DNA of 55,832 nt from Candidatus Altimarinota bacterium (GTDB lineage Bacteria > Patescibacteriota > Gracilibacteria > BD1-5 > UBA2023). The notes under the pieces are model-generated. The model made no database searches. It was not told where the DNA came from and saw only the letters and a program-made list of their open reading frames with translations. This document shows, one piece after another, positions 3,871 to 36,330 of the stretch; the first letter of the stretch is position 1; every line of letters starts with the position of its first letter. The translations under genes were made by a program, and so were the position numbers. The stretch spans positions 1 through 55,832 of the forward strand of contig JAQTWX010000005.1 in assembly GCA_028689065.1 (NCBI GenBank). The letters are read 5' to 3'.

Positions 3871-4763
3871 AAGAGATCTTCATGTATTGAATGAGCTGCC
3901 AAGCACCCCTCCGCGGCACTCATAATGGTCTGTTGGAATTTATTGGAGTTAGTCGTGATATCTCCAGCAGCATAAAGTCCTGGAACACTCGTCTCTTGAC
4001 GCTTGTCCACCACGATGTATCCGGCAGAATCTTTTTCTGGATTAAAATCATCTATAATTGCTGTATTTGGTTCATTTCCGATAGCGACAAATACTCCGTC
4101 AACTGCGAGTTCCGCCCCATCGGTCATAATACATTTTTCCACACCAAATCCCCCTTCTATGGAAGCAATACTTGTCTCAAAATGCACGTGAATATTTGTA
4201 TGTTTCCCAATCTGATCAACCCAAACCGTCTCTGCTCGAAACTGTTTTCCTCGTACAAGAATATGAACTTCTTTACATATTTCCGCAAGATAGAGAGCTT
4301 CGGTAATAGCAGTATTCCCTCCACCAACAAGCGCAACCGTACGATTTCGAAAGAAATTTCCATCACAGGTAGCACAGTAGGATACCCCAGCTCCGAGAAA
4401 TTTCTCTTCGCCTGGAACTCCGAGATGTCGGTACCTATTCCCAATTGCAAGAAGTACATACCGAGACTCGAGTGTTTTCCCGCTTGCTGTCTTCACAATA
4501 AAAGTAGATTTATCTTTCGTAACACTCATTACTTCATCTTGAATAAGTTCTGTTCCAGCAGAAACCGCATGCTCTGTGAATCGATCCATAATCTCTCGTC
4601 CAGAAGCTGATAGAGTCCCCGGATAATTTTCGACTTTATGAGAAGTTGCAAGTGCTCCACCAGGCATAGCTCCGATGATACAGTTCTTGAGCTTGTAACG
4701 AGAAGCGTACATTCCAGCAGGAAGTCCCGCGGATCCAGCTCCAATAGTAATAAGATCGTACAT
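3858..4763 (-). CDS. trxB: Thioredoxin reductase (NADPH, FAD)
   Basis: This enzyme transfers electrons from NADPH through FAD to thioredoxin. The 301-aa product has the N-terminal FAD-binding GAGSAG (residues 8-13). The redox-active CATC is at residues 130-133, followed by DGNFF. A second dinucleotide-binding GGGNTA sits near residue 148, and a C-terminal FAD motif reads GLYAAGD. The length is normal and there is no internal TGA. It is the last gene of the minus-strand run that starts with the giant secreted protein. A redox role for the nearby cell-surface protein is possible but not shown. Confidence 0.95.
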   Translation of the reverse strand: MYDLITIGAGSAGLPAGMYASRYKLKNCIIGAMPGGALATSHKVENYPGTLSASGREIMDRFTEHAVSAGTELIQDEVMSVTKDKSTFIVKTASGKTLESRYVLLAIGNRYRHLGVPGEEKFLGAGVSYCATCDGNFFRNRTVALVGGGNTAITEALYLAEICKEVHILVRGKQFRAETVWVDQIGKHTNIHVHFETSIASIEGGFGVEKCIMTDGAELAVDGVFVAIGNEPNTAIIDDFNPEKDSAGYIVVDKRQETSVPGLYAAGDITTNSNKFQQTIMSAAEGCLAAHSIHEDLLKKS

Positions 4764-4787
4764 AATATAGTTGTTAATTATTAGAAA

Positions 4788-5375
4788 TTAGTTGCTTGAA
4801 TCTGAAATATTATCCTCAGATATCTGATTTTTTACCACTCTTTTTGTTTTATTTTCCTGAATAATATTTCGAATAACACTCGCGCTATCAATAGGTTCTG
4901 GAGCGAAATGCATAATAAAATGAGAATTATCAGATGCTGTATGTATAGAAACGGTGCCAAAATTAAAGAGATTTTCCAAAAGTCCCTTTGTTTGAGCATT
5001 TACCTCCTTTATATCATCAAGTGAACATTCAGAAATAGTTCGATTTAAAAAAGAAATCTGCTCTATTCCTCGTATTCGTTGATCTGTTATAATAAAGAGG
5101 TCAAGCTCATTATTTATCCAAGTTACATAGAGAAAGAGAAGATATATCGACCAATAAAGTATCAAAAATATGGAAAAAATACTTCCCTGTGTAAAAGAAA
5201 ATATCGAAGTACTATATACAACGAACAATAGGGAAGAAACAATCAATATAAAAACATAGAAAGCCAGATGGGCATATACTATCCAGTGACGTTTAAATAC
5301 AAGTTTCAATTGTTCACCAGGTCGAAAAGTATTCTTGAGACTAGTTATATCAATCCCTTGAATATCGAGAGACAT
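4788..5375 (-). CDS. Membrane protein with bacterial PH (bPH2/YdbS-like) domain
   Basis: The 195-aa product has an N-terminal soluble stretch containing FRPGEQLKLVFKRHW. Two transmembrane segments follow (about residues 36-57 and 66-86). After these comes a PH-like domain with the DLFIITDQRI and SLDDIKEVNAQTKG motifs common in YdbS/DUF304 proteins. The C-terminus is charged and probably disordered. The family's molecular role is not established; members are often membrane-stress or secretion associated. It lies between tsaB and trxB, with its start 13 nt downstream of the tsaB stop. Confidence 0.75.
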   Translation of the reverse strand: MSLDIQGIDITSLKNTFRPGEQLKLVFKRHWIVYAHLAFYVFILIVSSLLFVVYSTSIFSFTQGSIFSIFLILYWSIYLLFLYVTWINNELDLFIITDQRIRGIEQISFLNRTISECSLDDIKEVNAQTKGLLENLFNFGTVSIHTASDNSHFIMHFAPEPIDSASVIRNIIQENKTKRVVKNQISEDNISDSSN

Positions 5376-5979: not shown

Positions 5980-8900
5980 TTATTTTAATATATATTCTGC
6001 ATTAATTTTATACAAAATATTTGCGATGATATTTTGTCCTGCATCTTGAAGTTTGAGTACTATATAAGAATCCTTGGTTGTATAAGAAAGAGAGTATTTC
6101 GAATCAAGAATATAAATATCTCCTCATTTTGATATACCAGCAATCGCCTTACTATTTGCATCAATTACATATCCTCACTCTGGAAGACTTGGACTAGAGA
6201 GGGTGTTTTTTACAAAAGAGAAACCAGTGGTTGGGGAAATAAATATACCATTTCCTGTAAGTTGATCAAAACTTGAAACCTGTTCTATATTCGATGCTGT
6301 AGATATATCTATTTTTTCGGAGAATATAACCGTATTATTGGTAGTAAGAATCTGAATCTGAAGTGGTGATGTTGTACTTGCTGGAATAACAGCAATATGA
6401 AATGAGGTATCTTCAAGAGAGATTTTTCCAGTTTTTTCATTGATTGTTGCGATATTATTTCCGGATCGTGTAAGAATAATATCACTTGTATTATTGGAAA
6501 GAAGAGCAAATCGTCCATCATTTTCTGTACGAATACCACCTGATGTAGTCGGTTGTATACGAGTCATAATATTATTTCTGAGTCGAAATATATCAATAGG
6601 TTCATTTGTAAGACTTTCATTTAATATTCCTGATACCATAGTACCAGAAATAGTTTGTATCTCTGGAACTGGAGCGTATATTTCCATTGTTATATCTCCG
6701 AAAGAAATATTTTTATTATTATCTTCCGCATAAAGTCGTATCTTCTTTTTTGAGAGCGTATCAAATGGTCCTATATCAAGGTCATAAATAGTATTTCATT
6801 TCTTAATTCCATATATCGTATTTGGGTCAAGACTATCTGTATCATTTTTCATATCCCCATCCCCATTTGTATCATGAGTTAAATCAGCATCAATCCAGAT
6901 ATTATTGACTCCAGATATATCTACTACATAAGGAACAAGATTAAGTTTCTGTGCCTGATATACTGGCACTCGAATCATTTCTCCATAATTAATAAGTGGT
7001 CCTTCTTTATCAGCTGCTTGTTGAGGAGAGAGAAGATGAAGAGAAGTTATGGTACTATTTATATTTTTTTTAACAGAATAAAGCTTCGTATAATACCAAT
7101 CATTTGTTGTTGGAAGTGATACATTGTATTCCTGGAACTTATTTCAAAGAGCATAAGATTGGTATGTTCCTGGACCATCAATATAAAGAGAACTTCCATC
7201 ATAATAAGAAAGAGAGACAGAACTATTTCTTCCCACTTCAACTATCGTACCTGGAAGAACTGGTATTCCTATTAGATCATTAGCACTGATTGTTTTTTGT
7301 TCAGGAGTTTCACTAAATAAATACAGTTTTCAGCTCTTTATCCAAACCTTGGTATTCGTAAGAAATTCATAATTTGTATTTGCTGCAAAAGTAAGAGTAT
7401 TATTTTGCATATCACCATCACGGAGATATTCTATAGTAGCACCTCATGCGCCTGCATATATACTACGTCCTTGAGAAATAATAATAGGAGTTATGCCATG
7501 TGTTTCTGGTGTCACTTGTTGGTATGTATTCATAGTTACTGTCGCTTCTCATGCTCCGCGTCAAAATGAAACAGTATTATTTCTTCAAATAAATCCAGCA
7601 TGGGTAGTATCAAAAACTGTCTCATTTGGAAGATTCGGTATCAAATCTACCTTATGAATAGTTGCTTGTGGCTGAATGGAGGTAGGAAGTTCCCCTGAAT
7701 CAATTCTATCGAATCGGTCTATATAATCATAGTATTCCAATCGGAAAAGATTATCTTCGAGAGAATTTGCTGGCTGAAATGAGAAATTGATTTCATTAGA
7801 AGTAACGAAAGTTTCCGTAAAATGATTTGGTGCAGAAAGAGCTATCGGAGAATTATTATCTGATGTCATATGAAGAAAGTTTTGCCAATTCCATACCTTT
7901 GGCGAATCGGAGAAATGACCAAGATTTGGTTCATTTAAGAAGTTTTGTTTTAAATAGAGGCTATTACTCATTCGATACACGATATCGCTATCCCCATCTT
8001 TATCAACATCAATATTTATCACTTCTTCTGTCCCATCTACTGCATCGATATAATCAAACAATCGAACTTGCTTACCATTTTTATCAAGAATGTATATACC
8101 TGCATATGAATATGAAGAAGCAGTCGAGGATACAGTAGAAACTGGTGATGAAGAACTTGTTGTGGCAGCAGTAGTATATGAATACGATTTACTTTCACTA
8201 CTGAGTCAGAGAAGTTTATTGGTACTATCAATATAAGCAAGCCTATGAATAGTATCGTTCTTTTTTGTATCTTGAATAAAAGAAGAGAGACTTTCTCGAA
8301 CTCATGAAACAAGAGTATTTCCCATATCTTGAATCTCCTGAACTTCCGTGTCTGCTCCTCATTTTTTTATCTGTTCGAGACTTGGAAGGATACGATTGTT
8401 GATGTCAGATATCTTTTGTTTTACATCATCTTGTCGCGCAGTTTCGAGAGAAAGATGACTTGCTTTTATAACATCTCCCTTAAAAGACAAGAAAGAAGGA
8501 AGAATAATATTTTTCTTCGGAGCATCAGTTCTGAGTAATGTATCCATCTCTGTTTTGAGTCGTATAACTTCTCTTTTCTCACCATGGAGATAATCTTTAA
8601 GGAGATGAAATTTTTCCGTATTTTGATTCAAAAGACTTTGGATAAATACATCTTCTGTTTTTCCTTGATAACTTATTGCTTTTTGAAGTGTATCAGCAAC
8701 AGTGAGAGCTTCAGGATCATGCATATCACGAATAGTCTGTATATTTTCTGTCAATAATTGTCTTAGTTCCTGCACAGTTACTTCTTCCTTCGAATGTTTC
8801 TCCATATAATGATTCAGTGCTACGAAATTATGAAGCACATCAAAAGAAAGCTTACCGAGGAGAGAAACAAGCACATCTTTTGTGGTTGTTTTGTCAGATT

Positions 8901-11900
8901 TTGGCTGAGTATATCATTGGATGTTTGTATTGGAAATACTTGGGAGTTTTACATCTGGAATCACGATAGATCCGATATTGGAAAGATCATTAGTGAATTG
9001 ATTTAATGGACTGAGTGCAGCCTTTGACATCTCAATAATAAAGGCGGTTTCCAACTCGAGATTTATAAAAGTTGTTACTTTAATAGCATCAACATAAGAA
9101 TAGGAGAATTGTGGAAATTCTATTTTAATGAAATCGGTTGGAAGTGTTCCATTTCGTTCTGTTATCTGAGCAATTTGATCACCAGCTCTCCATTCTGGAA
9201 CGAATGGATTAGTTTTCATAACACAAAGTACCTTTGCAATAAGCTTGAATATTTCCAACACTCAAGCAATGCTTGTTGGGAGTTTCGGTATAGTTGGTGG
9301 TGGTGGAAGATCTGGAAGTTTAATATCTGGAAGACTTGGAAGATCTGGGAGATCTGGTAAAGCAGGAAGTCTTGGTAACAAAGGAAGAGTTGGGATTCCT
9401 ATTTGTACCGTTGGAACATCTGGCAAAGAGAGTCGTGGAAGTGTTGGAAGTATCATCGGTACATAATTGGAATGATATTCTGGCAATAATATAGTTAGTC
9501 CCGCACGAATGTTATGAAGATCGAGCCAGATATCTGGAAGTTTTGGGAATGTAATAATCGGGATATTTGGAATAAGTCCAGAAATAAGCTTAAACATAAA
9601 ATGTTTAAGATCTTGTCGTTCATTCGCACAAGTTGCACACTCTTTTTCATATCAATAAAAAAGATCTACGATAAGTTGCCAGGATTTAAGAATAGCCTTT
9701 ATAAGGATATATAGTTCCACCCAAGTCTTAAAGCGTTGCCCATTGTCTGCTATCCATCATCCCATCATAAACTCAATGGATTCAACATTACAAAGAATCT
9801 GAGCTATGTATCGTTCTTTCCAAGTGAGATATTTGAGGAATTTTTCTGGAAATTTCTTATAATCTTCCACTATATTTATATTCTCTTGAAGAGAAGAAAT
9901 AAATCATTCTGTATCAAGTATAATTTGTTTATCTACTCCATTTACACTTCCAAGACGAGACCATTTTTCTTTTTTATCAGCAAGTTCATACTGCCATTGT
10001 TTGATAGTTAAATTCGCGTCTGCAAGCCATTTATCAAACTCCTCGGGAGAAAGTGTAGGCACATCAATATCTATCATCTCTGTCTCAAGTTTAATAAGAG
10101 GAAGATGTGACATAAAATCATATGCCGCTTTTATACCAGAAATATTTTTCCCTAAATCTCCACTCGTAGTATCAGCTTTTTTTCATTCCATGAATTTACT
10201 CGCAATATCTGCGTATCCGGAAAAATCGAGTCCGGAAAAATCCGGCAGTATAATATAGAGTGTCGGAAGACTTGTGATTTTATTAATAATCTCTTCTAAT
10301 TGATTATTTACCCAATCCATGAGAAATCATGGTTCTGCAGCAACTCGTTTATTTTTAATTTTGACAATATTTCCAGAATCAAGATTTGCAAGACCTGCGA
10401 GATCAAGAGAAGTTTCAAAATCCGATCCTTCTCCATTGAGTCCGATTCCAATAAGTGGTCCGGAAGAAATACTTAAAAGATTTCATTGTGCCAGGCTTGC
10501 ATTAATTTCTGGGAGATATGCATTATTTCCTGAAACATATTGAATAATATTTGCTCTATCTCTTGGGAGAAGAGTTTGATTTGATCAAGCTGATGTACCT
10601 GCTATACAAGAATTCGCATTAAAAGAAGGAGTATCACCGTTTCCGTTATCCACCAACAATCCTTGCGAAGCAACATCTCCACTCGAACCATCACCAGCAC
10701 AAGAATTTAATGGCTTAGCAACCACAATACAATTCCCTCATGGGACCAATGGAGAAACACCCTGAGGAGGAAGGTTTCCTGTAGCTCCAGCAGGTCAAAA
10801 ACACATCGCTGTACCTACCGCTCCTGTAATGGTCGGAGTAATAAAAAGACGAAAGAAATTAGACGAACTATTTGTACCAAGCCATCAACCAGCTCCTAGA
10901 CTATTTGACGAACAAGTAGAATCGAGTCCAATTGGGGATATAGGCCATACCATTGGTATAGGCATACATCCCCATGGTCCATAAATTGGAAGCCCTGTCA
11001 ATGCTGAAAATACCGGTATTCCTGAATCAGGAGTAAGAGACATGAGTGGCATTCCCATGATAGTCGGAGAAGATCATGGAGCTAGCGGTGCATAATTAAG
11101 TGGGGAAGTAATACATGAACCTCCTCAAAATCCACATCAGAGACCTGTTACAATCTCATCAATTCCATTATTTATCGCATCGATTTTCCCAGAACTTAAT
11201 CCCCCTATCTGTACATTTCCCGTTGCTGCATCATAGGAAACCACAGGAGTATTTGTCTGAGGAGTACGATTCGTATTAAAATTAGCAAGAGCTTCTGATG
11301 CATAGTTTGATAATACAGTCGATTCCCCACCATTCTTTAATGCTTCAGCACTTGCATTAAGCTCATCAATATAATCAGGAATGCCATTATTATTAAGATC
11401 AATCGCATTTTTCTGAAGCTCTTCCGGAAGCACAGAATTATCAACAAATACTTTTGTTCCTTTTTCATATGTTCGAGAATATGGCTGAATAGATCTCCAT
11501 ATAATGAGGTTTGCCCCGCACATATTGTTCGGAGAAAGAGAGATATCACCATATGTATCATTTCCTGATTCACCTCCTTCAAGTAATCCTACTTGTATCT
11601 TTCCAAATGTCACAGGAGTTGCTGTCACAAGATACTGTATCGTAATAGTTTCACTTGGTGCAATACTTGCAAAATCAAATCCATAACTAAAATTTCCTGT
11701 TGTAAGAGATTTGAGAGGATGCTGTTCTTGTTTTCCATTTCGAATAAGTGTAAATGTACCTTTTGAATCTTCTTGAAATATCTTCGCCTCATTAGAATCG
11801 AGATATACTGCATCTCGAAATGTACGAGAAGAAGTATTGGTAAGTTTAATCTCTACTCGAATTTTATCGCCTGTTTGCATAGTATCTCTCGTAGCACTAT

Positions 11901-14900
11901 CCATAATTCTATATGTCTTCTCTACTTTCAATCCTTTCCCTTCAGCAAAAGGTGAGTAAATAAAAACTCTATTACTTCCCGTACCAGAAACTGTTCCATT
12001 TCCAGATTCACTCACATAATTGAGTGAATAATAAATTACATTATTAATCAGCCCCTGATCTACATTCCCTGAATTAATAGTACTTGGAAGTACTAATCCA
12101 GTATAAGAAAAAGCTCCTCCGTCATTACGTACCTCCTTTGAAAGAATCATCCCAAGTCCATTTTCTATAAGTTTCTTAGTGAAAAAATGTTCGGTTTTCC
12201 CTGAGACTACTCGTGTACTTCCATAGAGTATATTTATCTCTCCACTATCATCAGTGGTGATAATATCTATCTTCCCATCTGCATCCATATCAAATATTTC
12301 AAGTTGTCGTATCTGCCCATGGAGGTCCTCAGTAATTCCTGATGTATTAATAATAAGAGGATATGTGCGAGTGAATTTTCCTGCGACATTATCTAAAATG
12401 AGGAGTCTCCCCTTTGAATCTGTAAGAGCAATATCGTCATGTCCATCACCAAAGAAATCACCTACTCATTTACGTAGTTTTCAAGCATCAGCAACATATG
12501 CAAGATATCCCATATCTTTAAAAGAACCTGCATAATTCATAAGAAGTTGTATTTTTCCACTTTCATAGAAAATAACAATATCAGATACTCCATCACCATT
12601 AGCATCGATTTTTTTATAGGATTCTATCTGTTCACCATTCCCAACCGTAAGCTGAGTTCCGATAGTTCTATCAAAATGAGAAGTTGATGGAACAATGTTC
12701 GGAAGATGTGAAACAGCATCTCAAAGAGTAATAGTTGAAAAGGTTTGATAAAATTTAGTTGCATTACCAATGGTAGTTCCTGCAGCCACTTCCAAAAACA
12801 TTCGGTTCGTTCCTTCCCATCCGATACCTGCTTTTTTTGGATAATTCTCAAGACTATCTGGATGAGCTGCTTTCATCATATAAACATTATCCAGATCGCC
12901 AATAGCACCTGCGGTCATATCTCTAAAAGCAAACATTATCCCCTCTGACCCCTGAGAAGATACTCCGAGATGTGTTTTATGAGAAACATATTTATTGGAA
13001 ATAGTTTCAAATACGAGCTTATTTTTATAAGTCGCAAGACCCACATTAAGTTCCGAAGAAGAAACCATTTCGATAGTGTCACTCGAAAATTTTATACCAA
13101 AATATCCCATTTGTACTCCTGCAGAAACTATCTTAATACCGAGAAGATTGGAAATTGTTGCCTGATCAAGCTCGAGATCTATGCCAAAAGTTTTTTCTAT
13201 TCTTCCATTCTGATCCATCTGAAGAAGTCGAGTTCCATTCGAAGAAAAGAGTGTAAGTCATCCGTTTTCTGCAACACTTGTATTTCCATTGAATCCTTTC
13301 ATAAATACTGTGGTCTCGGAAGATATCTCACAGTTTGTTATATCTGTACCAGAACCCGTACAAGGGAGAAAAGTAGTAACATTCGGATCTATATTCAGCC
13401 AAGCATTAGCTATATTTTCTTTTCTGTATGTATCATAGAAAGAAATATAACTTGTAGAGGTATTATTTGTAACAGTAGCTTGGAGTGCTGATGTATTATC
13501 TGTTGCTTGTACATATGTATATTTTCCTGCTGGAGTAAATCCAAACAATTCCTGCTCTTTCCATGGATTATTGAGAAGAGTAGTGACAGCTAATGATTTA
13601 GAATTATGATTAAAAAGAATCTCTCCTCCGAGATATTCCTTCTGAGTTATATCACCGTATTCTCCTCCGAGAAGTACGCTATACTGAGCATCGTAACGGA
13701 GAGTATCAAGTCTCGATTTATTAAAGATATAATACGTATCGAGAGTAGTAATATTTTGTGAAATCCCATTTACCGAAACGGAAGCTCCGGATTTATCAGT
13801 AATAACAAAACCATTAGATTCTAGACTTGGGCTCACAGTTCCGATAATATATGCCTTTCATGGAAGAGCGGTGGCTCCTATATTAAAATCAACGATACCA
13901 TTTGTAAAAGTATGTACGGTATTTGGAATGGTAGTATATTTCTGATAATCTTGTGGAATTTCAAGTGTGAGATTATATCCAGTCGCGAGATAAGCAATAT
14001 TTCCATATCGGTCATAGAGTGTTGCTCGAGTTGCATCAAGGTTTCCATCACGAGCTTCTATACGATCATATTTCTTCGCAAAAGTAAAGCTCATAGGAAC
14101 GTCCGGAAGAACGGTAATAATATTCCCTTCGACAGTATTGATTCCAGGAACTTGAACACTCATTTGGATATCTTTTGCTGCAATAGTACCTGGAGTCAAA
14201 ATAATATCTGCTTCAGAAACTCCGTTCACGATTTTAACAAATGGAGCACTAAGAGTTCCTGAAAGTTTTGGAAAATCAAGAGAAAGAATTCCGTTATATC
14301 CACTAATTATTTGATTGTTTTTATCGAGCACACGAACACGGAGAGTATGTCATTCTTTTCATGCGACAATCTGATCTTTATTATCTACTTCTACCTGAAC
14401 TTTCGCATAATCTATCGAACGAAGTGTAATAGTATTTGAAGCAATATTAACTCTGTCGATACGGAAAGAAAGATTCATTCCAGCACTTACTGATGCATTT
14501 GTTACAGTAAAACTCGTATATCCATCCGTGATATTCTTGAATGTTGTCACTCCAAGTTTCTCACCACCATCACCTATAAATTCTGCACCTCATGATATAG
14601 ATCCACTCAGCTTATACATCTCTCCTTGTGCGAGATTTCCAAAAGAATCAAGAACACGAACAAGAATAGTATTTTTTTGTCCAGCAATAAAGATATTGGA
14701 AGATGGAGATACTTCTATATTTGTAGGAAGAGCAGGAATAACGGTCATAACAATAGATCCACTAATCCCTTTAGAATCAGTAAACTCAAAACGATATACT
14801 CCTGATTTATTCAGAAGTGATGCATCATTGAAAATATAATTATTATCAGGTATATTAATAGGACCTTTAAGAAGAACGTTGCTTATATCATCATACACCC

Positions 14901-17900
14901 GAAGTATATAGGGAACGTTTCCTGAAAGAGCGATATTAGCTTTGTTGATTTTTCGGAGATTAAAAAGAATTCCATTTGGATTTCCGGCTGTAATAACAGA
15001 ACTAGAGATAAAATCAGTAGCTCCTGTTTTTATCTGACTTTGTACAGAGATACGTTCATAACGAACAGAAATAGTTACTGATTGTGATGTTTTATCTACA
15101 ACAACATTACCATTCGTATCTTTTGTAAGAATATGTGCGTCGAGAACTATATCAAAATCAGTATTCTTGCTTGTAAAACTATAGCTTGCGATACCGTTTT
15201 TTGCACGAATCTGCATCGGACTAAAGTTTACATATGAATCAATATTTGCGATGTTTGCAATTGCTCCTTGTCCTGCTCGATCATATACAACATTTCGAGT
15301 AGCAGTTCCATCTGTAGAAACTACTGTAAGTTTCTTGATATCAAATGAAACCATATTAAAACTATCGATATCGATAATTCTTCCGTTCTTTGTAAGTTCA
15401 ACTGTAAGTGGTACTGATTGTCCGTATCCAAAAATTTTTCATGGATCATTAAATTTGAGTTCTCCACTACCAATAAGTTCATATCCATCAAGGATACCAT
15501 TTTTATTGAGATCTTGTGAATTTTCAGGAGTTGCAAATGAAGAACTAGCTACTTGACCTCCCTTCTCACTACTCGACCCTCCACAACTTCCAGGACTGAT
15601 AGTTGGAGGAAGGATAGTTCCAAGCCAACAAGATATTGCTCATAGCCACTCTGAAATAGGAACTCCTCATGGTGGACCACAAGCGGGAGTAGAAGGAGTA
15701 GTCGTTCCATTACTCGCACTCGCGATATTTGTTCCATCAATAAGTCCCTGATAACTATTTACGCGATCTATAATTCCTGTTATATTTGCGGGAAGCGAAG
15801 CTTTTGCTCCTGGATCCACTTTTAGATACATATTTTTTGCGTCACCAACCGCTCCGATATAAGCAATCTCATAATCATTTTTCTTTCCATTTGCACTGAT
15901 ATTACTCTCTCCGTCAATATTCAGACTACGTTCCAAAGTATTACTGTATTTGAGAGTCGCATTTTTCATATTATTCCAAATCACTGACTCTGTCGCAGCA
16001 TTAAGTGCTGCAGGCTGGCTACTGAGAATTTGATAGAGATCAATATTCCCTCCAAGTGATGTAATCTCTGCAGTTTTTGCATCGAGAAACTCTTTAATTT
16101 TCTTCTGTGCACTCGGATAATTTAATTCGGAACCATTCAGAACGATCCGAAAAAGATTCGGATATACGATACTATGATGTATGAGATTTTTATCGAAAAA
16201 GTCCACATATCTTTCTTTATCGGAAGGAAGAGATGGGGTTATCATATCTTTAAGCTCTATAGCATATTCTTCATCTGTCGGAGATTTATGTTCCACAATA
16301 GAATTAGAAAGCGTTTTGAAACTATATGTTTTTGTATAAGCAATAGTTGAGGCAGTTCCATTATCTCCTCCATCATCTTTACAAAATTCTCCTGATTCTT
16401 TTACTATTACTCCATCGAGTTCTAGTCTCTGCTTCGTACAATCTTCAACGGGAAGATTATTTTTATAAGTGACGTAGTCAGAAAATGGAGTATCAAGAGG
16501 TATATGTACTGTGCGACAATCAAAACTAGTTCCATTATTGGTTTCTTTTGGCCAGTATTTTGGAACCATGTTCCAAAAACCACCATCTCCGCCACCATAA
16601 GAATCATGAACCATTTCGGTATATGGCTGGAGAAGCATATTATTTACAAGACAATCCTCTGCGGTTGCTACATGGAGAGAAGAATCTGTAGCAAGCTCTT
16701 TCGATCCTCCTATATCAAAAATAGGGCTTACAAAATTTTTATATATATGAGCATCAAGGGTCATTTCACCTGTCTGTATCTTTGTTTTATTCAGATTTAA
16801 CGGTGAATTTCCTCACCAATAAGAAAGAGTTTTGGAGCTTGTCTTAGAGAGACATGTCTGAGCATTGGGATTATTACTGAGAAAGTTTACATCTGGTTGA
16901 AGATTATTTATGTTATATCCTCGATTTGCCTCTACGATAACTCATGAATTTGTTGTATTTCCACGAACGATACTACATTGTTTTGCATCAGTAATAGTAC
17001 TCGCCTCTTGTCCGAAAAAATAATTTTTATAAACAAGTGTAACATTTTTACTATTAACATTCAGTGAACCTTTATTTATTTTTGTATCAAAAGTAAAACC
17101 CGTAGCAATCTTGAGTGGTTCTGCAAGTTGCGTTTTTAAAAGATTATCAATTGCTGATTCAAACAATGTATTGGTATCTTTGAGAGTTGTTCTCATGAAA
17201 AGATCTCTTTTTGCAATCACTACTGGAGTACTATCCACTCGTACGGTCGTATCACCATATCGACCGGTATTATGAATATATCGGAGAACATCTCCCATAT
17301 ATTTCGCATTAAATACTTCAAAAAACTGTTTTACTGACTTTTCGATAATATCTTTAGTTGTAATATCCGGAGTTTTGGATATATCCATGGTAGTACTAGA
17401 ATTGGCATCAATAAGAGCCTGAATGCCTGGTACTGTTATTCCTTCTGCAGCACTTTGTGTAGCATTATATATTTTTTGTGCAAGATATTTATTGAATCGA
17501 TGATATGCAATATCTTCAATATTTTCCAGATAGAGAAGATAGGATTTCCAAGAATCTGCACTTGCTGTTTCCTGATCATGAAGTGCATCCATGTAAAAAA
17601 CTCGTGGCTCAGTAGGAGTATTCTCTGTAGAAAAAAGTCCCTGTTTATTGTAAAAATCATGAGTTTTGTTAAAAAAAGCAACAAGTTCACTATTATTCTT
17701 AGTTACATCACCTGTATTGGGACGAATAACAGAATGCCAAATTTCTGGTTTCTCTTCGGTAAGAGTTTTTGTAGTATATTCATAATATTTTTTTGTTTGA
17801 TTATATATGAAACTCTTCATGTCAAAATCCACATAAGGATAGACACTCATAAATGCTTTTCCATCCTTATGCACAACAGGAAGTGGTACTTCTCCAATAA

Positions 17901-18240
17901 GTACTGTCCCAACGAGACGAGAAAGTCCAACTCCATCCCCTTCATAAAAAAGTTTCTCATTGATAGAAGCAATATTATAAGGATTTGTGGTCTTTTGAAC
18001 TGGAAATATAACAACTCGTGTATTTGGAAGATACGACTGAACATCCTGTGCGTACTGAAAAATCTTGGATTTTACCGCTCCCGTATAGATAGCATCATCT
18101 ACAATGAAAGATATAACATCCGCATTCACTTTAGCTTCTGCACGCGTAGAATCAAGCATTGGAAGCTGAAAAGTCTGGAGAAAAAGCAGAGAAAAAATCA
18201 AAAAGGAAGAGAGCCATTTTTGAATGCGAGAGTAGTTCAT
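5980..18240 (-). CDS. Giant secreted/surface protein, about 4,086 aa, with FG-GAP/VCBS-like and Ig-like regions
   Basis: One frame runs from ATG 18240 to TAA 5980-5982. I checked every codon column across the gaps and found no in-frame TAA or TAG, only about 40 TGA read as Gly. Residues 1 to about 36 form a signal peptide (hydrophobic SFLIFSLLFLQ, then SxRAEA). About 37-800 is a unique globular-looking region. About 910-1500 holds several beta-rich, Ig/invasin-like segments. About 1870-2000 has three FG-GAP/VCBS-like repeats, including DANGDGVSDIV and DMDADGKIDII. Near 2280 is DLNNNGIPDYIDE (TSP3-like). About 2882-2993 is a Pro/Leu-rich repeat, 3123-3294 is helical, and near 3411 is DVDKDGDSDIV. 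It is probably an adhesin or host-contact protein; the family is unknown. No sorting motif was seen at the C-terminus. Confidence 0.85.
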
Positions 18241-27884: not shown

Positions 27885-29240
27885 ATGCGCTCCACTCTTC
27901 CATTTACTCTACATAACTGCTTTGCAGTTGCTCGTGATGAAGCAGAGATACAGTCTCTTCTCAATAACGACATCTATAAGTTCCTTATGCTCGACTTTAT
28001 TCTCGCCCATCCTGAGTACAGAAAGATTGAAGTAAAGTGGAAAATGAAGGTACGAAATAAGGATATTCATCTCGCCAATGTAATTCCAGAAAGTGCTCTA
28101 CGAGAACAACTCGATGCTGCAAAAGCACTCCCCGGATTGAGCCAAGCGGATATTTCCTATCTTCGAGGGATGGTTACTAATACAGGAAAACCCTTACTTA
28201 ACGAACAGACGCTTATGTTTCTTAAGGATTTTCATCTCCCTGATTATCACTTAGAAGCAGATAACAAAGATGGATATGACCTTACATTCACTGGACCATG
28301 GGAAACTTCTATTATGTGGGAGATTCTCGGACTCAAGATTATAAACACCCTGTATCTCTACCATTATACAAAGAAAGCGAAACTTACTCCGAGTGAATTT
28401 AATGGGATTATGACAAAAGTTTTTGGTCGACTTTACGATGATATAGATGTTGTTAAATCCCATCAAAATGTTACTTTCTCTGAGTTTGGAACCAGAAGAT
28501 CAGCGAGTACTGATATCCATAGAATGGTGTTGGAAATCCTGAATAGCGAACTTCCTGAACAATGCATCGGAACCTCCAATGTTATGCTCGCCAAAGAATT
28601 TTGACAGAACAATCCACGTGGAACCAATGCTCATGAACTTCGTATGATTCCAACTGCCATGGTGGATGAACCTCAGGAGATTATCGATACGATGTACCGT
28701 ATCGACCGAGAATGGATGAAACACAATCCGGAACTTGCTATTCTTTTACCAGACACTTTCGGAACAAGTTTTTATCTTCAACATGCGCCAGACGATATTA
28801 TCCAATGACATATAGGAATGCGTATAGATTCCAAAAATCCACTTATCGCTGTTCCAGAATACGTTAATTGGCTTATAGGTCACGGGCAAGATCCCAAAAC
28901 AAAACTCGTGATTCCATCAGATGGACTAGATGCGCAAAGTTTGGTAGATATTACTCAGAAATGTTCTTCACAGGTTGGAATACTCACTGGTGGCTGGGGA
29001 ACAAACCTCACCAATAATACGAAAGGTACTATGCCGATTAACAAGGAAATTTTTGGTCCTTTCTGATCATTCTCGGTAGTTATAAAACCAGAAGCAGTGT
29101 ATAGACCTGGTCGCGGATGGGTAAGTACTGTTAAGCTTTCCGATAATCCAACAAAAGCAACAGGAAGTGATGAAAGAGTAAATCTCTTTAAGAAGACATT
29201 TGGAGTAGAAGGAATGGAAGCACAAGAAGTAAGCGTATAA
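27885..29240 (+). CDS. pncB: Nicotinate phosphoribosyltransferase (PncB)
   Basis: PncB converts nicotinate and PRPP (with ATP) to nicotinate mononucleotide. The product is 451 aa. Motifs include LLNNDIYKFLM near the N-terminus and FSEFGTRRSAS (the phosphoribosyl site). GTSNVMLAKEF, GTNAHE, LPDTFGT and the C-terminal VKLSDNPTKATG follow the E. coli PncB order. Three TGA codons (28602, 28806, 29064) are read as Gly; the frame joins without other stops and ends in TAA. It is first in the NAD salvage run, downstream of two predicted NrtR sites. Confidence 0.93.
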
Positions 29241-29306: not shown

Positions 29307-29921
29307 ATGTATATGAAAACTATCGAACAAGGAAGACAGGCGGTTATCGTCGTAGATTATCAGAATGATTTCGGAAAACCAGGAGCTCCCCTCTATGTAA
29401 AAGGAGGAGAAACTCTTTCCCCACTCATTAACAGTCTTATGAGAAACGTAAAAACACAATCTGGACTCGTTATCGCGACTCGAGATTGGCACCCAGACAA
29501 GAGTGTTCACTTCGATGCTTGGCCACGTCACTGTATAGCAGACACTGAAGGTGCTGACTATGTTGAAGGATTCGACCGAAGTTTGGTCGATGTCGAGATA
29601 TTCAAGGGGTACAAGAACAGTGATGACGGATATTCTGGATTCGAAGGAGTGACAAAACTTCTTGGAAATCCAGACGATGGATTTGGTGTGGCACCGGGAG
29701 CAAAAACTCTCCATGAAGTGCTCATCGAAAATAACGTTAAAATCGTGAAAATCGTCGGACTTGCCACTGATTTCTGTGTGAAGGCAACAGTGCTCAATGC
29801 AGTAAAGGACTTTCAGACTATCGTCTATGAAGAAGGAATCCGAGCCGTTGATCTCAAAGAATGAGATGGTGAACGATCCATACGGGAGATGTTATTAAAC
29901 GGAGCAAAAATGGTATCTTAA
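29307..29921 (+). CDS. pncA: Nicotinamidase (PncA)
   Basis: PncA hydrolyses nicotinamide to nicotinate and ammonia, feeding PncB. In the 204-aa product the isochorismatase-fold catalytic triad is visible: Asp17 (VVDYQNDF), Lys100 (EIFKGY) and Cys157 (ATDFCVKA). Metal-binding residues lie around RDWHPDKSVHF (residues 59-69). One TGA (29862-29864) is read as Gly, and the last 18 residues end at TAA. ATG 29313 is an alternative start two codons in. It is the next gene after pncB, behind a weak predicted NrtR site. Confidence 0.93.
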
Positions 29922-30044: not shown

Positions 30045-31853
30045 ATGAATACTTTTTCTAAGCTTCTCGCGGTTTCCTGAGATCCTTGGACACATGGTCA
30101 TGATGATGTTCGTAAACGAGCAGGTCCAGGAACCCTTGTCGGGATTGCTAATAATCCAAAGAAAACCTATTCGTTTGCTATGTGGGAACGACTTCGTCTC
30201 GCACAGCACGCCATGAGAGATATATATCCGTCCCATATCAAGATTATCTCTGGATCTGGAGCGCTCTATATGAAAGAGAATCGTATTCCAACGCTGGTGC
30301 GTGGTTGTCGAAACTTTATCGATGCCGCCGAAGAAACAACACTTCGATTTTTCTACAAGAGTGAATTTCCCGAAGTAACATTCGAAACTATAGATGCAGA
30401 GCCGAATTCCCGAGTAGCAGAGATTAGTTCTTCGGGAGTGAAAGATGTGCTCAGAGTCGGACATAATATATCTGGATTCGTAACCTCCCGAGTCAAGCAA
30501 GCCCTTGAATCTCGTATCATTCGTCAGTACCCTGTGGCGATAACTGGAGAAATGGGTTCTGGAAAATCCTATATCGCACGCGAGATAAAAAAGATAAGCG
30601 ATTCCTATGGTGTATCCTGTATCCATATCGATATGGATACTATCGCACATGATATCTATAGTACATTCAACGAACCTATCTATCAGGAATGCCGTCAAAA
30701 ACTCGTCGAAGCCTTTTGAGCGAGCATTCGATTATCTGACGGATATATCGATCGAACGAAACTTGCAGAGATATTTAGAAAGGATGTAACTGGTGAGAAA
30801 AAAGCTCAACTCAATAGTATTATGAGGGAACCAGTTCTCCATCGGTACACGAAGATGACTCTCTGAAAAGAAGGTATTATCATCGTCGACAATGCTCTCT
30901 TGGCGGAATTTGAACTCGGGTATTTAGCAAATCATCATAGTCTCGTTGTAACTGCAGACCCAAAGACTCGTATGAGTCGGGTGAAAGCACGATATAAAGA
31001 AAGAGGAAGAAATATATCCACGTCTGCTGTTGAGAAAATGTTTACATCACAAATGGATACTAGTCAGAAAAAATCAATACTCGGACATACTATAGAAAAG
31101 GAAAATAACGGAAGTATTACAGAAATAGACAATAGTAAAAATACTTCTATCGACGCTCGAAAAACATTTTTTGGTATGCTCCGAAATATCGATATATCAG
31201 GAGAACTCCGTACTGGGATTATCTTCCATCTTTTGGGAGTGAGCGGATTTGAACGAGAACAGTGTGTAACAACTCTCAAAAGAAAACATGAAGAATCTCA
31301 TAGAAGGTATCATACCTGGGAACATATCATTGAGATGCTCGATTTTCTCTTCGAACATGCGGCAGCGACAAACATGTCCGATGATGAAATCGCAACTCTT
31401 GGTGGTGCTATACTTTTTCATGACAGTGTTTATAGTATCGATCCAGTATACTATCGAGATAACGAGGTACGTAGTGCAAATTTCGCAAAAGAATTCTTGG
31501 AGAAACACCTTGTAAAAAAGAATTTTGTCGATGCTATATATCAACTTATCTACTCAACCGCTCATGGAAATGGAGTATTTACCGAAAATGATCCGCTCGC
31601 ACTCCTTCTTCGTGATTCTGATCTTGCAATACTCGGTGCTACCAAAGAACGATATCAACTCTATGTAACCGATATTATGGATGAACTCGGAATCGGTACA
31701 AGTAAAGAAAATCAAGCAAAACGAATCAAGCTTCTTACAAAATTTCGGAGAGATAAAAAACTCTATAAAACGGAGATAGGAAATGAGAAATTCGCTGAAA
31801 ATGCACAAAAGAATCTAAGTTGGGAGATACAGAGATTAAAAAGAACACAATAA
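30045..31853 (+). CDS. CoaD-CoaE-HD fusion: phosphopantetheine adenylyltransferase, dephospho-CoA kinase and HD-domain protein
   Basis: This is a single 602-aa frame, reading TGA at 30078, 30717 and 30864 as Gly and ending in TAA. Residues 1 to about 160 look like CoaD: VSGDPWTHGH has the T-x-G-H nucleotidyltransferase motif at 16-19, and PTLVRG and EISSSGVKDVLR follow at the CoaD positions. Residues about 162-370 look like CoaE: P-loop GEMGSGKS at 168-175, HIDMDTIAHD, and QMDTSQKK near the end. Residues about 385-602 form an HD-superfamily hydrolase: KRKHEESHRRYHTWEH (His423, His427) and LFHDS (His459, Asp460). The first two parts would catalyse the last two CoA steps. The HD substrate is unknown. 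The gene lies between pncA and nadE. Confidence 0.85.
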
Positions 31854-31978: not shown

Positions 31979-33847
31979 ATGATTACTCTCTCTCAAACAA
32001 ACATCGTCGCCGGGCGACCGGATATCAATACTCGAAACTTGATTCGTGATATCTGTATCGCAGAGGATAAGGGTTCTGATCTTCATGTTGCAACCGAGCT
32101 TGCAATCTCTGGATACATGATCGGGGATGAATGGGAAAATGAAGCATTTGTTCGCGAATGTGAAGATATGAACCAGGAAATCATCAATGCCACAAGGGAT
32201 TCAGTAATGTCCGTTATCTGGGGAAATATCCTCAGTGACCCTGTGAAAGTCAATGAGGATGGTCGTATCCGAAAGTACAACGCAGCATTTGTCGCTCGAA
32301 ATGGAGTCCTCATCCCGAACAAAGCACTCGGTGATGGTGCATTCGCTCTCAAGACCAATATGCCGAAATACCGATACTTTGACGATGAGCGACACATAAC
32401 CTCTCTCAAAGATCTTGCTTTTGAAGAGGGTGCGAGCATCGATACTATTGACCAGTATTACCGTGTAATCGATATGACAATTGATGGAGTGAAACGAAAT
32501 GTAGGGGTGATTATCTGTGAAGATATGTGGGATGATGATTATGTAATCAAAGTAGTTGACATACTCAAGAAGAAGGGTGTTAATATAATCGTAAATCTCT
32601 CCGCTTCACCCTTCGGAATCGGAAAACAAGGAAAACGTGACCGACTCCTCGCGAGACAGAGCAAAGGTATTGATATTGTCTACACGAATCGAGTCGGAGC
32701 TGAGAATAACAGTAAAAATGAATACGTCTACGACGGAGCGAGTGTCGTATTTCGCGACGGAAAAAAGATATTTCAGGTACCATCGTTTCAGGAAGGAGTA
32801 TTTGAGGTTCAGGAAAAAAAGATAAAAAACGAAGAAAAGGAGATGAGGAAAATCGAAAATGCTCTCATCTACGGAATACGTGAATATATGAGAAGTTCCG
32901 GACAAAAAAAGCTCGTCATCGGGCTCTCTGGAGGAATCGATTCCGCTCTCGTGGCAGCACTCGCGGTCCAAGCAATCGGTGCTGAAAATGTCATCACGGT
33001 CAATATGCCATCGGTGTATAACTCCGATATGACCAAAGACTTAGCGAGGGATCTCGCGAGGGAACTTGGAATCGAGTACCATGTCGTTCCGATTCAGGAA
33101 AGTGTTGATTTTACCAAGGCTCAGATTGGCGATATTCTCGGAATCAAAGTCGAGGGGCTTATGGAGGAAAATATCCAAGCTCGAGATCGTGGTTCGAGAG
33201 TTCTCATGGCAATTGCTGCACAATCTGGATGTATCATGACCAATAACGGAAATAAGCTCGAGATAGCAACCGGATTCGCAAGCATCGCAGGAGACCTCAA
33301 TGGAGCCATCGCACCGATTGCAGACCTCTACAAGACTCAGATTTTTGCACTTTCAAGAATGATGAGCCAGAAATACAGTATCCCGACTCTCGCGAAAATC
33401 TGTGATATTCCGCCATCTGCCGAGCTTTCAAAAGATCAAGCAATCGAGGAAGGAAAAGGAGATCCGTTCTTCTTCGAGTACCACGACCGGCTCATGTACC
33501 AGTTCCTCGAGATGCGTCGAGATCCAGCTCAAATCCTCACCTCCTATCAGGATGGGAAACTCGAAGAACTCCTCAACTCATGGACGTACGATGTTGGAAC
33601 AGAATATGCTCTCAAGAAGCCGATTATCGGAGCAGACGGATATTTCCCAACCATCGGAGCTTGGGTTGCCGATGTCGAACGCATCTGGAAACTCTTCCGC
33701 GGAGCATCGACTATCAAAGGAAAATACATACCAACCATCATCTCCCTGAGTCGTCGAGCCCTCGGGTACGATCTCAGACGAAGCGAGATGAGTCCGTACT
33801 TTTTGAAGAAGTATGAGGAAAAGAAAGGGGAATTGCTTGAAAAATAA
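31979..33847 (+). CDS. nadE: Glutamine-dependent NAD+ synthetase
   Basis: NadE amidates nicotinate adenine dinucleotide to NAD using glutamine and ATP. In the 622-aa product the N-terminal nitrilase-type glutaminase domain shows Glu40 (VATELAISGY), Lys115 (IPNKALG) and Cys180 (VIICEDMW). The C-terminal ATP-pyrophosphatase domain starts near residue 290 with the PP-loop SGGIDS at 317-322. The length and domain order are those of glutamine-using NadE, so ammonia need not be free. There are no TGA codons. The two predicted NrtR operators at its promoter make it the clearest regulated gene of the region. Confidence 0.96.
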   Translation: MITLSQTNIVAGRPDINTRNLIRDICIAEDKGSDLHVATELAISGYMIGDEWENEAFVRECEDMNQEIINATRDSVMSVIWGNILSDPVKVNEDGRIRKYNAAFVARNGVLIPNKALGDGAFALKTNMPKYRYFDDERHITSLKDLAFEEGASIDTIDQYYRVIDMTIDGVKRNVGVIICEDMWDDDYVIKVVDILKKKGVNIIVNLSASPFGIGKQGKRDRLLARQSKGIDIVYTNRVGAENNSKNEYVYDGASVVFRDGKKIFQVPSFQEGVFEVQEKKIKNEEKEMRKIENALIYGIREYMRSSGQKKLVIGLSGGIDSALVAALAVQAIGAENVITVNMPSVYNSDMTKDLARDLARELGIEYHVVPIQESVDFTKAQIGDILGIKVEGLMEENIQARDRGSRVLMAIAAQSGCIMTNNGNKLEIATGFASIAGDLNGAIAPIADLYKTQIFALSRMMSQKYSIPTLAKICDIPPSAELSKDQAIEEGKGDPFFFEYHDRLMYQFLEMRRDPAQILTSYQDGKLEELLNSWTYDVGTEYALKKPIIGADGYFPTIGAWVADVERIWKLFRGASTIKGKYIPTIISLSRRALGYDLRRSEMSPYFLKKYEEKKGELLEK

Positions 33848-34185: not shown

Positions 34186-34340
34186 TATTGCCTCCTAAAA
34201 TTAGGAATTTCATTTTAGAAATCACATCTTATTGGCATGTGAAATACTAAATATTTATATCTGTAAAAATATATTTGTCAAAAGTAAAATCCCTAGGAAG
34301 AAAGAATTGTGCAATCTTATATTTCTCAACTATAAAAACT

Positions 34341-34919
34341 ATGAAAACTCTTATCTATGGCGGGGCATTCGACCCTCCACATTTGGCACATGAACATATC
34401 GTCCGAAGTATCGCGGAGCAGTACCAACCTGAGAGAATCCTCATTATTCCGAGCGGTCAACGTTCTGATAAATCGTACAAAGTAGCATTGGAACATCGAG
34501 TGCAGATACTTTCCATATTCGCTGAGGATCTCGCAGATATCGGTGCAGAATTAGTCGATGATTTCATGGTCGGACGTGTCACTGACGGTACAACTCTCGG
34601 AGTAGATCGAGTTATGCAAGAACGATATGGACATTCTCCGACTCAGGTATTTGGAACAGATGTTATCCCAAATATGAAGCTCTGGGATCCGAGCGGACGG
34701 GTAGAGCGAGAAATTCCAAAGATTTTCGTATGTCGCTCCGGTGCTCCTACTCCTGATTTCTCTCGTGTAGACAACCATCACATCATCACTCCAGAACTTC
34801 CTTCGGATATTAGAGCACTCTCCAGTACTGAAATCCGTGAAAATGTAAAAAAGAATGTGTTCCACGGACTCGCTCCGAGAATTGCGGAGTATATTCAAAA
34901 AAACAGACTTTATCGTTAA
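34341..34919 (+). CDS. nadD: Nicotinate-nucleotide adenylyltransferase (NadD)
   Basis: NadD adenylates nicotinate mononucleotide to nicotinate adenine dinucleotide, between PncB and NadE. The 192-aa product starts MKTLIYGGAFDPPHLAHEH, with the GGxFDPxHxxH nucleotidyltransferase signature. VFGTDVIPNMKLW and the ISSTxIR-like ALSSTEIREN near the C-terminus complete the family pattern. ATG 34341 is chosen because the conserved first strand begins there; the open frame upstream looks non-coding. The next gene starts 12 nt downstream. There are no TGA codons. Confidence 0.94.
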   Translation: MKTLIYGGAFDPPHLAHEHIVRSIAEQYQPERILIIPSGQRSDKSYKVALEHRVQILSIFAEDLADIGAELVDDFMVGRVTDGTTLGVDRVMQERYGHSPTQVFGTDVIPNMKLWDPSGRVEREIPKIFVCRSGAPTPDFSRVDNHHIITPELPSDIRALSSTEIRENVKKNVFHGLAPRIAEYIQKNRLYR

Positions 34920-34931
34920 TCGGATACGCAT

Positions 34932-35549
34932 ATGAAAAATACAGCAACATGGCAACAAACCATTGAAAGGATACCGGATATCCCAGTTCCAAGAATTATT
35001 GATTCAAAACCGCTTAACAAAGGGAAATTCTTAGAACTTTCTGAAAAGATCATAGAGTATCCAAATGGAATGACTCGTCACTATGAGGGAACTTCTCGGA
35101 TAGAGACGAAAGAAATCATTTCTGTTCTCGCAAAAACCCGAGAGGATGTATTAATACTTATCGCAGAATATCGTCCACTCATCGCTCCATATTGGAATAT
35201 CTCTCTGCCTGCAGGCTTGGTCGATCCTGGATATAACCGAGAAGAAACCTGTCGAAAAGAACTGTTGGAAGAGACAGGATATATGGGTGAACAAACGCAA
35301 TTTCTTATAAATACCGCACCGAGTCCAGGAGGAAGCAATGAAATTATCTCTCAATATTATATGCCCGATGTAGTTCCGAGCCCAGAGTGACAAAAACTTG
35401 AACCATCCGAAATAATTGAAGTTCTCAAAGTTCCCATGAATGAAGTCGATATGCTTATAAAAAAAGTTATGAATCTTACTGAACTTTTTGTAATCGACGC
35501 AAAAATTGCACAGGCAATGAATTATGCGAGATTGCGAGATTATATTTAA
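34932..35549 (+). CDS. Nudix hydrolase, ADP-ribose pyrophosphatase type
   Basis: The probable reaction is hydrolysis of ADP-ribose to AMP and ribose 5-phosphate. The 205-aa product has a Nudix box at about residues 95-117 (AGLVDPGY, then REETCRKELLEETGY), containing the REx2EE core as KELLEETG. SPGGSNE after the box is typical of ADP-ribose pyrophosphatases. One TGA (35388-35390) is read as Gly; the following helix ends at TAA. Lying between nadD and the NrtR-like gene, it could tune the ADP-ribose pool that NrtR proteins sense. The substrate is inferred from the family and context. Confidence 0.85.
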
Positions 35550-35622
35550 GACTCTCTAAAAAAAGCTTTTGCTTTTTCTTCTCTCTTTCGTACAATGACG
35601 ATTGTATTTCTTACACTTTCCT

Positions 35623-36330
35623 ATGCCAACAGAAAACCCTCAAAAAGAATTCACGAAGAATATCTGGGAACTTTCCATTCCTGTTCTTGCTCTCGATGTA
35701 GTGATATTCACTATCTATAAAGGAGAACTCTGCATCGTAACCATCAATACTACTCCCGGTGTGACAAATGATCATCTGATGCGACTCCCTGGAGGGATTC
35801 TCCGATCGGGAGAATGACTCGATGTAGCATTCGACCGTATACTTCTCACTAAGACCGGACTTTCGAATATCTATAAGGAGCAACTTATTACTATCGGAAC
35901 TCCTGAACGTGACTCTCGTGGACATGTTGTATCTATCGTATATTATGCTCTTGTTGACTCTCAGATACTTCTTGCCTCTCTTGATCTGACTCGTGCCCAT
36001 CTTGTCTCTATCGGAGATGTGCTTTCTTCGGATATTATGGCCTATGATCATGCAGATATAGTCAAATATGCCCGACAGCGTCTTGAATGGAAGATGGAAT
36101 ATACGAATATATCCCAGAATATTCTCCCTGCTCGTTTTACTCTTTCCCGTCTTCAGGAGGTGTACGAGATTATCTTCGGACACGCTTTCGATAAACGAAA
36201 TTTTCGGAAGAAATTCCTCTCCACCGGGATGCTCCACGAAACCGACGAACTCGATCGAGAAAGTTCAAATCGTCCTGCGAAGCTCTATGAATTTTCGGAT
36301 AAGGAGTTGAAAATTACCCAGTTACTGTAA
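35623..36330 (+). CDS. nrtR: NrtR-type transcriptional regulator (Nudix plus winged helix)
   Basis: NrtR represses NAD genes and is released by ADP-ribose or related NAD metabolites. In the 235-aa product residues 1 to about 145 form a Nudix-like domain (LALDVVIFTIYKGEL, LPGGILRSGEG) whose Nudix box is degenerate (no intact REx2EE), as expected for sensors. Residues about 150-235 form the characteristic winged-helix C-terminus (FTLSRLQEVYEIIFG, then KRNFRKKFLSTGML). The TGA at 35815-35817 supplies the Gly just after the GGILRSGE segment. A TACACTT half-site lies at about 35612-35618 before the ATG, hinting at autoregulation. Confidence 0.9.

Follow-up and report, generated by a model that had tools for sequence, protein, structure and literature searches.

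In animals, COASY unites the two final steps of CoA synthesis in a single chain in which PPAT is followed by dephospho-CoA kinase (DPCK), and the archaeal DPCK was identified via its fusion to PPAT (PMC6650551). Other proteins of the pathway carry additional domains. Mycobacterial CoaE has an extra C-terminal domain (UPF0157, GrpB), and in PANK4 and the plant PANK2-DUF89 fusions, a hydrolase is joined to a CoA-pathway enzyme. The protein described here has the domain order of COASY, followed by a C-terminal HD hydrolase domain. It is encoded in a window of 55,832 nucleotides (the whole stretch of DNA that was analysed).

A CoaD-CoaE-HD fusion in a single reading frame

The fusion and its parts comprise the following features:

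30045..31853, + strand, CoaD-CoaE-HD fusion ORF; one open frame of 602 aa in translation table 25
30045..30518, + strand, CoaD (PPAT) domain, aa 1-158; TIGR01510, motifs, and a fold match to E. coli CoaD
30522..31130, + strand, CoaE (dephospho-CoA kinase) domain, aa 160-362; PF01121 and conserved motifs
31149..31850, + strand, HD hydrolase domain, aa 369-602; PHROG 19425, model with pLDDT 92.7 and predicted class I PDE fold
30078..30080, + strand, TGA read as Gly12; Gly is found there in standard-code CoaD-CoaE fusions
30717..30719, + strand, TGA read as Gly225; the site is Gly in 12/12 fusions
30864..30866, + strand, TGA read as Gly274; table 25 translation

The triple fusion in one frame that had been claimed from the sequence-only reading is borne out by the table 25 translation and the domain matches, and the motif positions given there (TxGH at 16-19, P-loop at 168-175, H423, H427, and H459-D460) are all correct. 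The observation of the fusion is confirmed, and all three active-site motifs are intact. The frame contains exactly three TGA codons (G12, G225, and G274). Their reading as glycine is supported at G225, which is a Gly in 12/12 fusion relatives in the alignment, and at G12, which is encoded by ordinary Gly codons in the motif YAFSGDP of standard-code CoaD-CoaE fusions. The odd CoaD loop AVSGDP was considered as a sign of decay and rejected; SGDP is common to genome G160 and the standard-code fusions of Patescibacteria. Elsewhere in the window (5980-18240, − strand), a giant surface or secreted protein is probably encoded by a single frame that stays open for 4086 aa and includes 40 TGA codons.

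The CoaD domain appears to be a divergent member of the PPATs, named on the basis of motifs and fold. Its match to TIGR01510 (61.2 bits over aa 10-157) is below the equivalog cut-off of 103.3 bits, and the active-site motifs S11, T16xG18H19, K40, R86G87xR89, and SSS (S128-130) are all present; S11, H19, K40, R86, R89, and S128-S129 are invariant in 12/12 fusions. In a Foldseek search, the CoaD part matched E. coli CoaD (6b7a) with an E value of 1.8e-8 and a TM-score of 0.88 by target length, and solved structures of PPAT and dephospho-CoA kinase match the corresponding halves of the fusion. The CoaE domain passes the cut-off of PF01121 (63.9 bits over aa 164-356; cut-off 27) and falls below that of the equivalog TIGR00152 (60.6 bits; cut-off 65.55). 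It retains the P-loop GEMGSGKS (168-175), D198, and R312/R316, and G173-K174-S175, D198, R312, and R316 are invariant among the 12 fusions. In the full-length AlphaFold model, the CoaD and HD parts are good and the CoaE part is poor (pLDDT often <60).

Family and fold of the HD domain

In the profile scans, the HD part stayed below every Pfam and NCBIfam cut-off, and a Pfam scan of the fusion gave no match to DUF89. PHROG 19425 (“phosphohydrolase”) is matched by 9/9 aligned relatives, with 1.1e-20 for the HD domain of the window. The motifs Y422-H423-x3-H427, H459-D460, N473-E474, and D524-x-D526 are present; H427, H459-D460, and D524/D526 correspond to the metal-ligand pattern H...HD...D of the HD superfamily, and H423, H427, H459, D460, D524, and D526 are invariant in 12/12 fusions.

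The AlphaFold model of the domain (pLDDT 92.7, pTM 0.89) has the catalytic domains of PDE5, PDE10, PDE2, and PDE9 as its top matches (Foldseek, VIA-align), and the alignment with PDE5 covers 217 of 234 residues (VIA-align; Z 17.5, rmsd 3.5, 18% identity). As modelled, it is an HD domain with the fold of class I cyclic-nucleotide phosphodiesterases. A profile alignment places its YHxxxH, HD, and later D onto the PDE5 segments YHNWRH, HD, and ACDLS, which in PDE5 provide the general-acid histidine and the metal ligands. The signature of class I PDEs is HDx2Hx4N. It is absent from the HD domain of the fusion, where residues 459-467 read HDSVYSIDP, with Tyr replacing the second His, and the domain is therefore not filed as a PDE. 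The Pfam profile PDEase_I matched 3 of 53 relatives, weakly (best E 0.0014), and the HD domain of the window is not among the matches listed.

By tblastn, the same family links to a member annotated as “N-methyl-D-aspartate receptor NMDAR2C subunit”; at this locus (L153, 4995-5639), the annotation is a clear misnomer. The family that bears this name, and with it PHROG 19425, presumably corresponds to COG4339.

Distribution among Patescibacteria

The architecture recurs in other Gracilibacteria, where the sequence-only reading had proposed to look for it. Full-length CoaD-CoaE-HD proteins are encoded by 12 of 353 genomes of the class, in the families f1, f2, and f13, and their occurrence across three GTDB families excludes a chance origin of the fusion. 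One further genome of the class (G049) encodes CoaD-CoaE without the HD. All CoaE matches in the three families lie within such proteins, except for one weak partial match (G073). The order is reversed to HD-CoaD in the patescibacterium G351.

In a 380-genome sample of the phylum, CoaD-CoaE fusions without HD are present in the families f71 and f155 and probably also in f41 (L319-L324; the locus of L324 ends at the contig edge), and no HD was found within ~1.5 kb of them. Their presence elsewhere in the phylum suggests that the CoaD-CoaE fusion is older or more common than the addition of the HD. In the families f52 and f66, separate coaD and coaE genes adjoin each other. The earlier statement that CoaD and CoaE are normally separate proteins in bacteria needs amending, given the HD-less fusions in other families of Patescibacteria and in viral contigs. 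A scan of genome contigs for exact peptides of the single fusion protein yielded no relative. A scan of genome contigs with an alignment returned only ordinary CoaD loci. Their flanks (80 loci) do not contain this HD, so that its linkage to CoaD is no general feature of bacteria.

A different stand-alone HD protein (motif HDTGF) occurs in about 20 Gracilibacteria between rseP-like and tgt-like genes (L011-L031). These stand-alone HDs form a separate, long-branched clade and were dismissed as evidence against a role in CoA metabolism.

Linkage to CoaD and CoaE in viral contigs

When viral contigs were scanned with the alignment of the fusions, three arrangements came to light. In L157, a CoaD-CoaE fusion overlaps an HD gene of its own frame; in L173, CoaE follows a fused CoaD-HD; and in L166, CoaD, HD, and CoaE lie in overlapping frames. 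In L166 (4442-5591), the CoaD frame is broken midway and resumes in another frame fused to the HD, which represents a sequence error or a frameshift. In the phage-like contig L157, the CoaD-CoaE fusion and the COG4339-like HD are directly preceded by a SpoT/MESH1-like HD gene (4455-4973).

A search at the DNA level for the motif HDx[VI]YxPxxxxNE yielded 134 loci in IMG/VR contigs (in which misclassification is possible), 129 of which encode this HD by profile; the pattern picks one subset of the HDs. Linkage, counted when CoaD and/or CoaE was fused to the HD or located at most 1.5 kb away on the same strand, was found in 33 of the 129 loci, and in 29/110 after deduplication at 90%, a set that also takes in loci from the alignment scan. 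By contrast, none of 120 loci (1.1 Mb) of a control HD family (HDTIEDT, SpoT-like) had CoaD, CoaE, or this HD nearby (Fisher p 4e-11, calculated for loci that are not independent). The linkage is non-random and not a local accident. In a tree of the HDs, whose branches are weak, those linked to CoaD are scattered, requiring 17 changes versus 33 when shuffled.

The fused architectures in viral contigs comprise HD-CoaD and CoaD-HD, each with or without an adjoining CoaE. Where the HD itself adjoins, it follows CoaD-CoaE or CoaE, or precedes CoaD-CoaE or CoaD. The fused viral CoaDs retain the motifs HxGH, R-x-L-R-N/D, and ISS. No HD was found within ~4 kb of the stand-alone coaD genes of Microcystis phage MaAM05, Brevundimonas phage Kikimora, Caulobacter phage C1, and Prevotella phage Lak-B5 (L178-L181).

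In 96 of 132 viral loci with this HD, neither CoaD nor CoaE is nearby, so the HD can act alone or with partners encoded elsewhere. A CoaD of at least 75 bits is present elsewhere on the record in 12 of 50 HD-only viral records, and a CoaE-like kinase, its family judged from sequence, is encoded in the examined stretch at 10 of 81 HD-only loci. Eight of these 81 loci have a Sir2-like gene ~5 kb or less from the HD (e.g., L223, 2893-3633), a possible link to NAD.

CoA pathway and gene neighbourhood

The source genome (1.04 Mb, 96% complete) has its sole CoaE in the fusion. Its only CoaD-type matches are the fusion and the neighbouring NadD, which leaves the fusion as the only convincing CoaD; separate coaD or coaE genes, the possibility of which had been raised against the fusion, were not found elsewhere in this genome. 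None of the 13 genomes with a fusion (the 12 with the full-length protein and G049) encodes CoaBC (PF04127), type III PanK (PF03309), or type I PanK (TIGR00554), whereas control genomes were positive. AcpS (PF01648) was detected in 2 of the 13; the others show no holo-ACP synthase. The only steps of CoA synthesis evident in these genomes would thus be the last two, and given the absence of CoaBC and of PanK types I and III, CoA is probably completed from scavenged 4'-phosphopantetheine. E. coli reportedly cannot import 4'-phosphopantetheine (review PMC12570885); in animal cells, a 4'-phosphopantetheine route from an external source has been described (Srinivasan 2015, as cited in PMC9352595). 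The retention of only the last two steps in these Patescibacteria implies acquisition of 4'-phosphopantetheine or a close precursor, and the source organism is probably host-dependent.

The fusion is flanked by genes of NAD metabolism:

27885..29240, + strand, pncB, nicotinate phosphoribosyltransferase; NF003704, 273 bits, below cut-off
29307..29921, + strand, pncA, nicotinamidase; NF008623, 106 bits, below cut-off
31979..33847, + strand, nadE, NAD synthetase; TIGR00552, 132 bits, above cut-off
34275..34919, + strand, nadD, nicotinate-nucleotide adenylyltransferase, start codon uncertain; NF005519, 65 bits, below cut-off
34932..35549, + strand, NUDIX hydrolase; PF00293, 40.9 bits, above cut-off
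35569..36330, + strand, NrtR-type NAD-salvage repressor; NrtR_WHD, 82.5 bits, above cut-off

By its predicted gene content, in the order pncB-pncA, fusion, nadE, nadD, NUDIX hydrolase, and NrtR-type repressor, this neighbourhood is a cofactor (NAD)-salvage cluster. NAD genes are also located near the fusion in several relatives, and the cluster was not seen in the f13 relatives checked. In G026, the vicinity of the fusion comprises a PRPP synthetase, an NAD kinase, and a PHP protein weakly matching 3',5'-nucleoside bisphosphate phosphatase. For L036 (4833-5867), the PHP-type protein near the fusion is one that matches this phosphatase weakly, and possible PHP-type proteins were identified by eye in L037 (1517-2494) and L040 (10991-12514), near a fusion or the CoaD-CoaE of G049. 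Such a PHP-type protein could remove 3',5'-ADP in the HD's stead where the HD is missing.

Proposed function and alternative explanations

The domain content and its recurrence make it likely that the fusion is a COASY-like CoA synthase with an HD domain that works in CoA metabolism, CoA synthesis being the well-supported part. The PPAT domain would adenylylate 4'-phosphopantetheine, presumably scavenged from outside, to dephospho-CoA; the CoaE domain would phosphorylate the ribose 3'-OH of dephospho-CoA to form CoA; and the HD domain would hydrolyse a related metabolite, acting in control or clean-up alongside CoaE. The HD hydrolase probably has a role in CoA metabolism that has so far gone unrecognised. 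Precedents for a hydrolase in such a role are PANK4 and the HD enzyme MESH1, which strips NADPH of its 2'-phosphate. For the reaction itself, we offer a tentative guess that may well prove wrong: because PDE-type sites protonate the ribose 3'-O leaving group, the HD may cleave CoA-type nucleotides at the bond to their ribose 3'-oxygen, with CoA to dephospho-CoA or 3',5'-ADP to AMP as candidate reactions. The phosphohydrolase coupled to CoA synthesis that the sequence-only reading had suggested gains support from the fusions and neighbours in phages, but the coupling would be to salvage rather than to full synthesis, as the earlier steps are missing. Its other suggestion, that a cofactor intermediate is cleaved, is plausible.

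It is possible, if unlikely, that the HD is instead a phosphatase that acts on 4'-phosphopantetheine or oxidised forms of it, for damage control or to limit the rate, comparable to the unrelated DUF89 domain of PANK4. The PANK4 phosphatase, proposed to act on 4'-phosphopantetheine, limits CoA synthesis (PMC9352595), and in phages the HD is often joined to CoaD without CoaE; the same compound is the substrate of CoaD. However, it would be costly to destroy a precursor that has to be scavenged because the cell is unable to make it anew, and the PDE-like fold, although it does not fix the substrate, favours nucleotides.

The closest solved folds, those of cyclic-nucleotide PDEs, the presence of the HD family in many large phages, and the second, SpoT-like HD that adjoins the module in one contig would also be consistent with hydrolysis of a signalling nucleotide (a cyclic nucleotide, an alarmone, or a defence signal), with the linkage to CoaD and CoaE serving regulation or phage counter-defence instead of CoA chemistry. 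This is unlikely, because the several different orders in which the HD is fused to CoaD are hard to account for unless the two share a metabolite, and the PDE motif HDx2Hx4N is missing (HDSVYSIDP).

A more speculative and quite improbable extension of the CoA reading is that CoaE and the HD, within one protein, oppose each other as kinase and phosphatase at the 3'-phosphate of CoA, setting the ratio of CoA to dephospho-CoA, and that phage HD-CoaD, together with the reversibility of PPAT, dismantles host CoA to 4'-phosphopantetheine and ATP or rebuilds CoA after host attack. CoA would then be a contested cofactor in phage infection, as NAD is.

The position of the fusion between pncA and nadE, and an NAD kinase near the fusion in one relative, might indicate that it serves NAD(P), with CoaD adenylylating NMN or NaMN and the kinase or the HD acting on NAD(P). 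This is very unlikely, since the cluster itself includes a dedicated NadD, two PPAT-specific motifs (RGxR and ISSS) are retained in the N-terminal domain, which can be aligned to structures of PPAT, and the CoaE family is dedicated to the phosphorylation of dephospho-CoA. Moreover, those f13 and viral members whose surroundings were checked are not part of such clusters. An assembly or frame artefact, or an HD that is a dead passenger, can hardly be upheld and is already largely refuted, for even though the HD part falls below all Pfam and NCBIfam cut-offs and the relative G049 lacks it, the same architecture is present in twelve independent genomes, six HD residues are invariant in 12/12, and the HD fold is confident.

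Comparison with known systems

As far as the open-access literature is concerned, the impression of the sequence-only reading that the architecture is undescribed holds: no description of CoaD-CoaE-HD or HD-CoaD was found. New here is the HD as a putative catalytic partner of a COASY-like CoA synthase that recurs in phages. With the preferred CoA reading, a widespread HD family misnamed as an NMDA-receptor subunit gains a testable place in CoA metabolism. A family shared by bacteria and phages is also placed near the class I phosphodiesterase fold. With large phages carrying a module of CoaD, CoaE, and HD, it may be asked whether infection by phages targets CoA.

Unlike COASY, the fusion in the window has a PPAT of the bacterial CoaD type (TIGR01510) and an added C-terminal HD, and the earlier pathway is missing. 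The fusions in the Patescibacteria families f71, f155, and probably f41 agree with it in the order CoaD-CoaE and in the SGDP loop variant but use the standard code and are free of HD within ~1.5 kb. In the mycobacterial CoaE-UPF0157 proteins, the extra domain is unrelated and CoaD is lacking, so that only the CoaE part matches, whereas the DUF89 of PANK4 and plant PANK2-DUF89 belongs to another family and resides on a pantothenate kinase rather than on PPAT or DPCK. The HD family of PHROG 19425 annotated as NMDAR2C is the same by profile and tblastn, but its annotated members stand alone. The placement of the HD follows the logic of gene fusion, as did the identification of the archaeal dephospho-CoA kinase.
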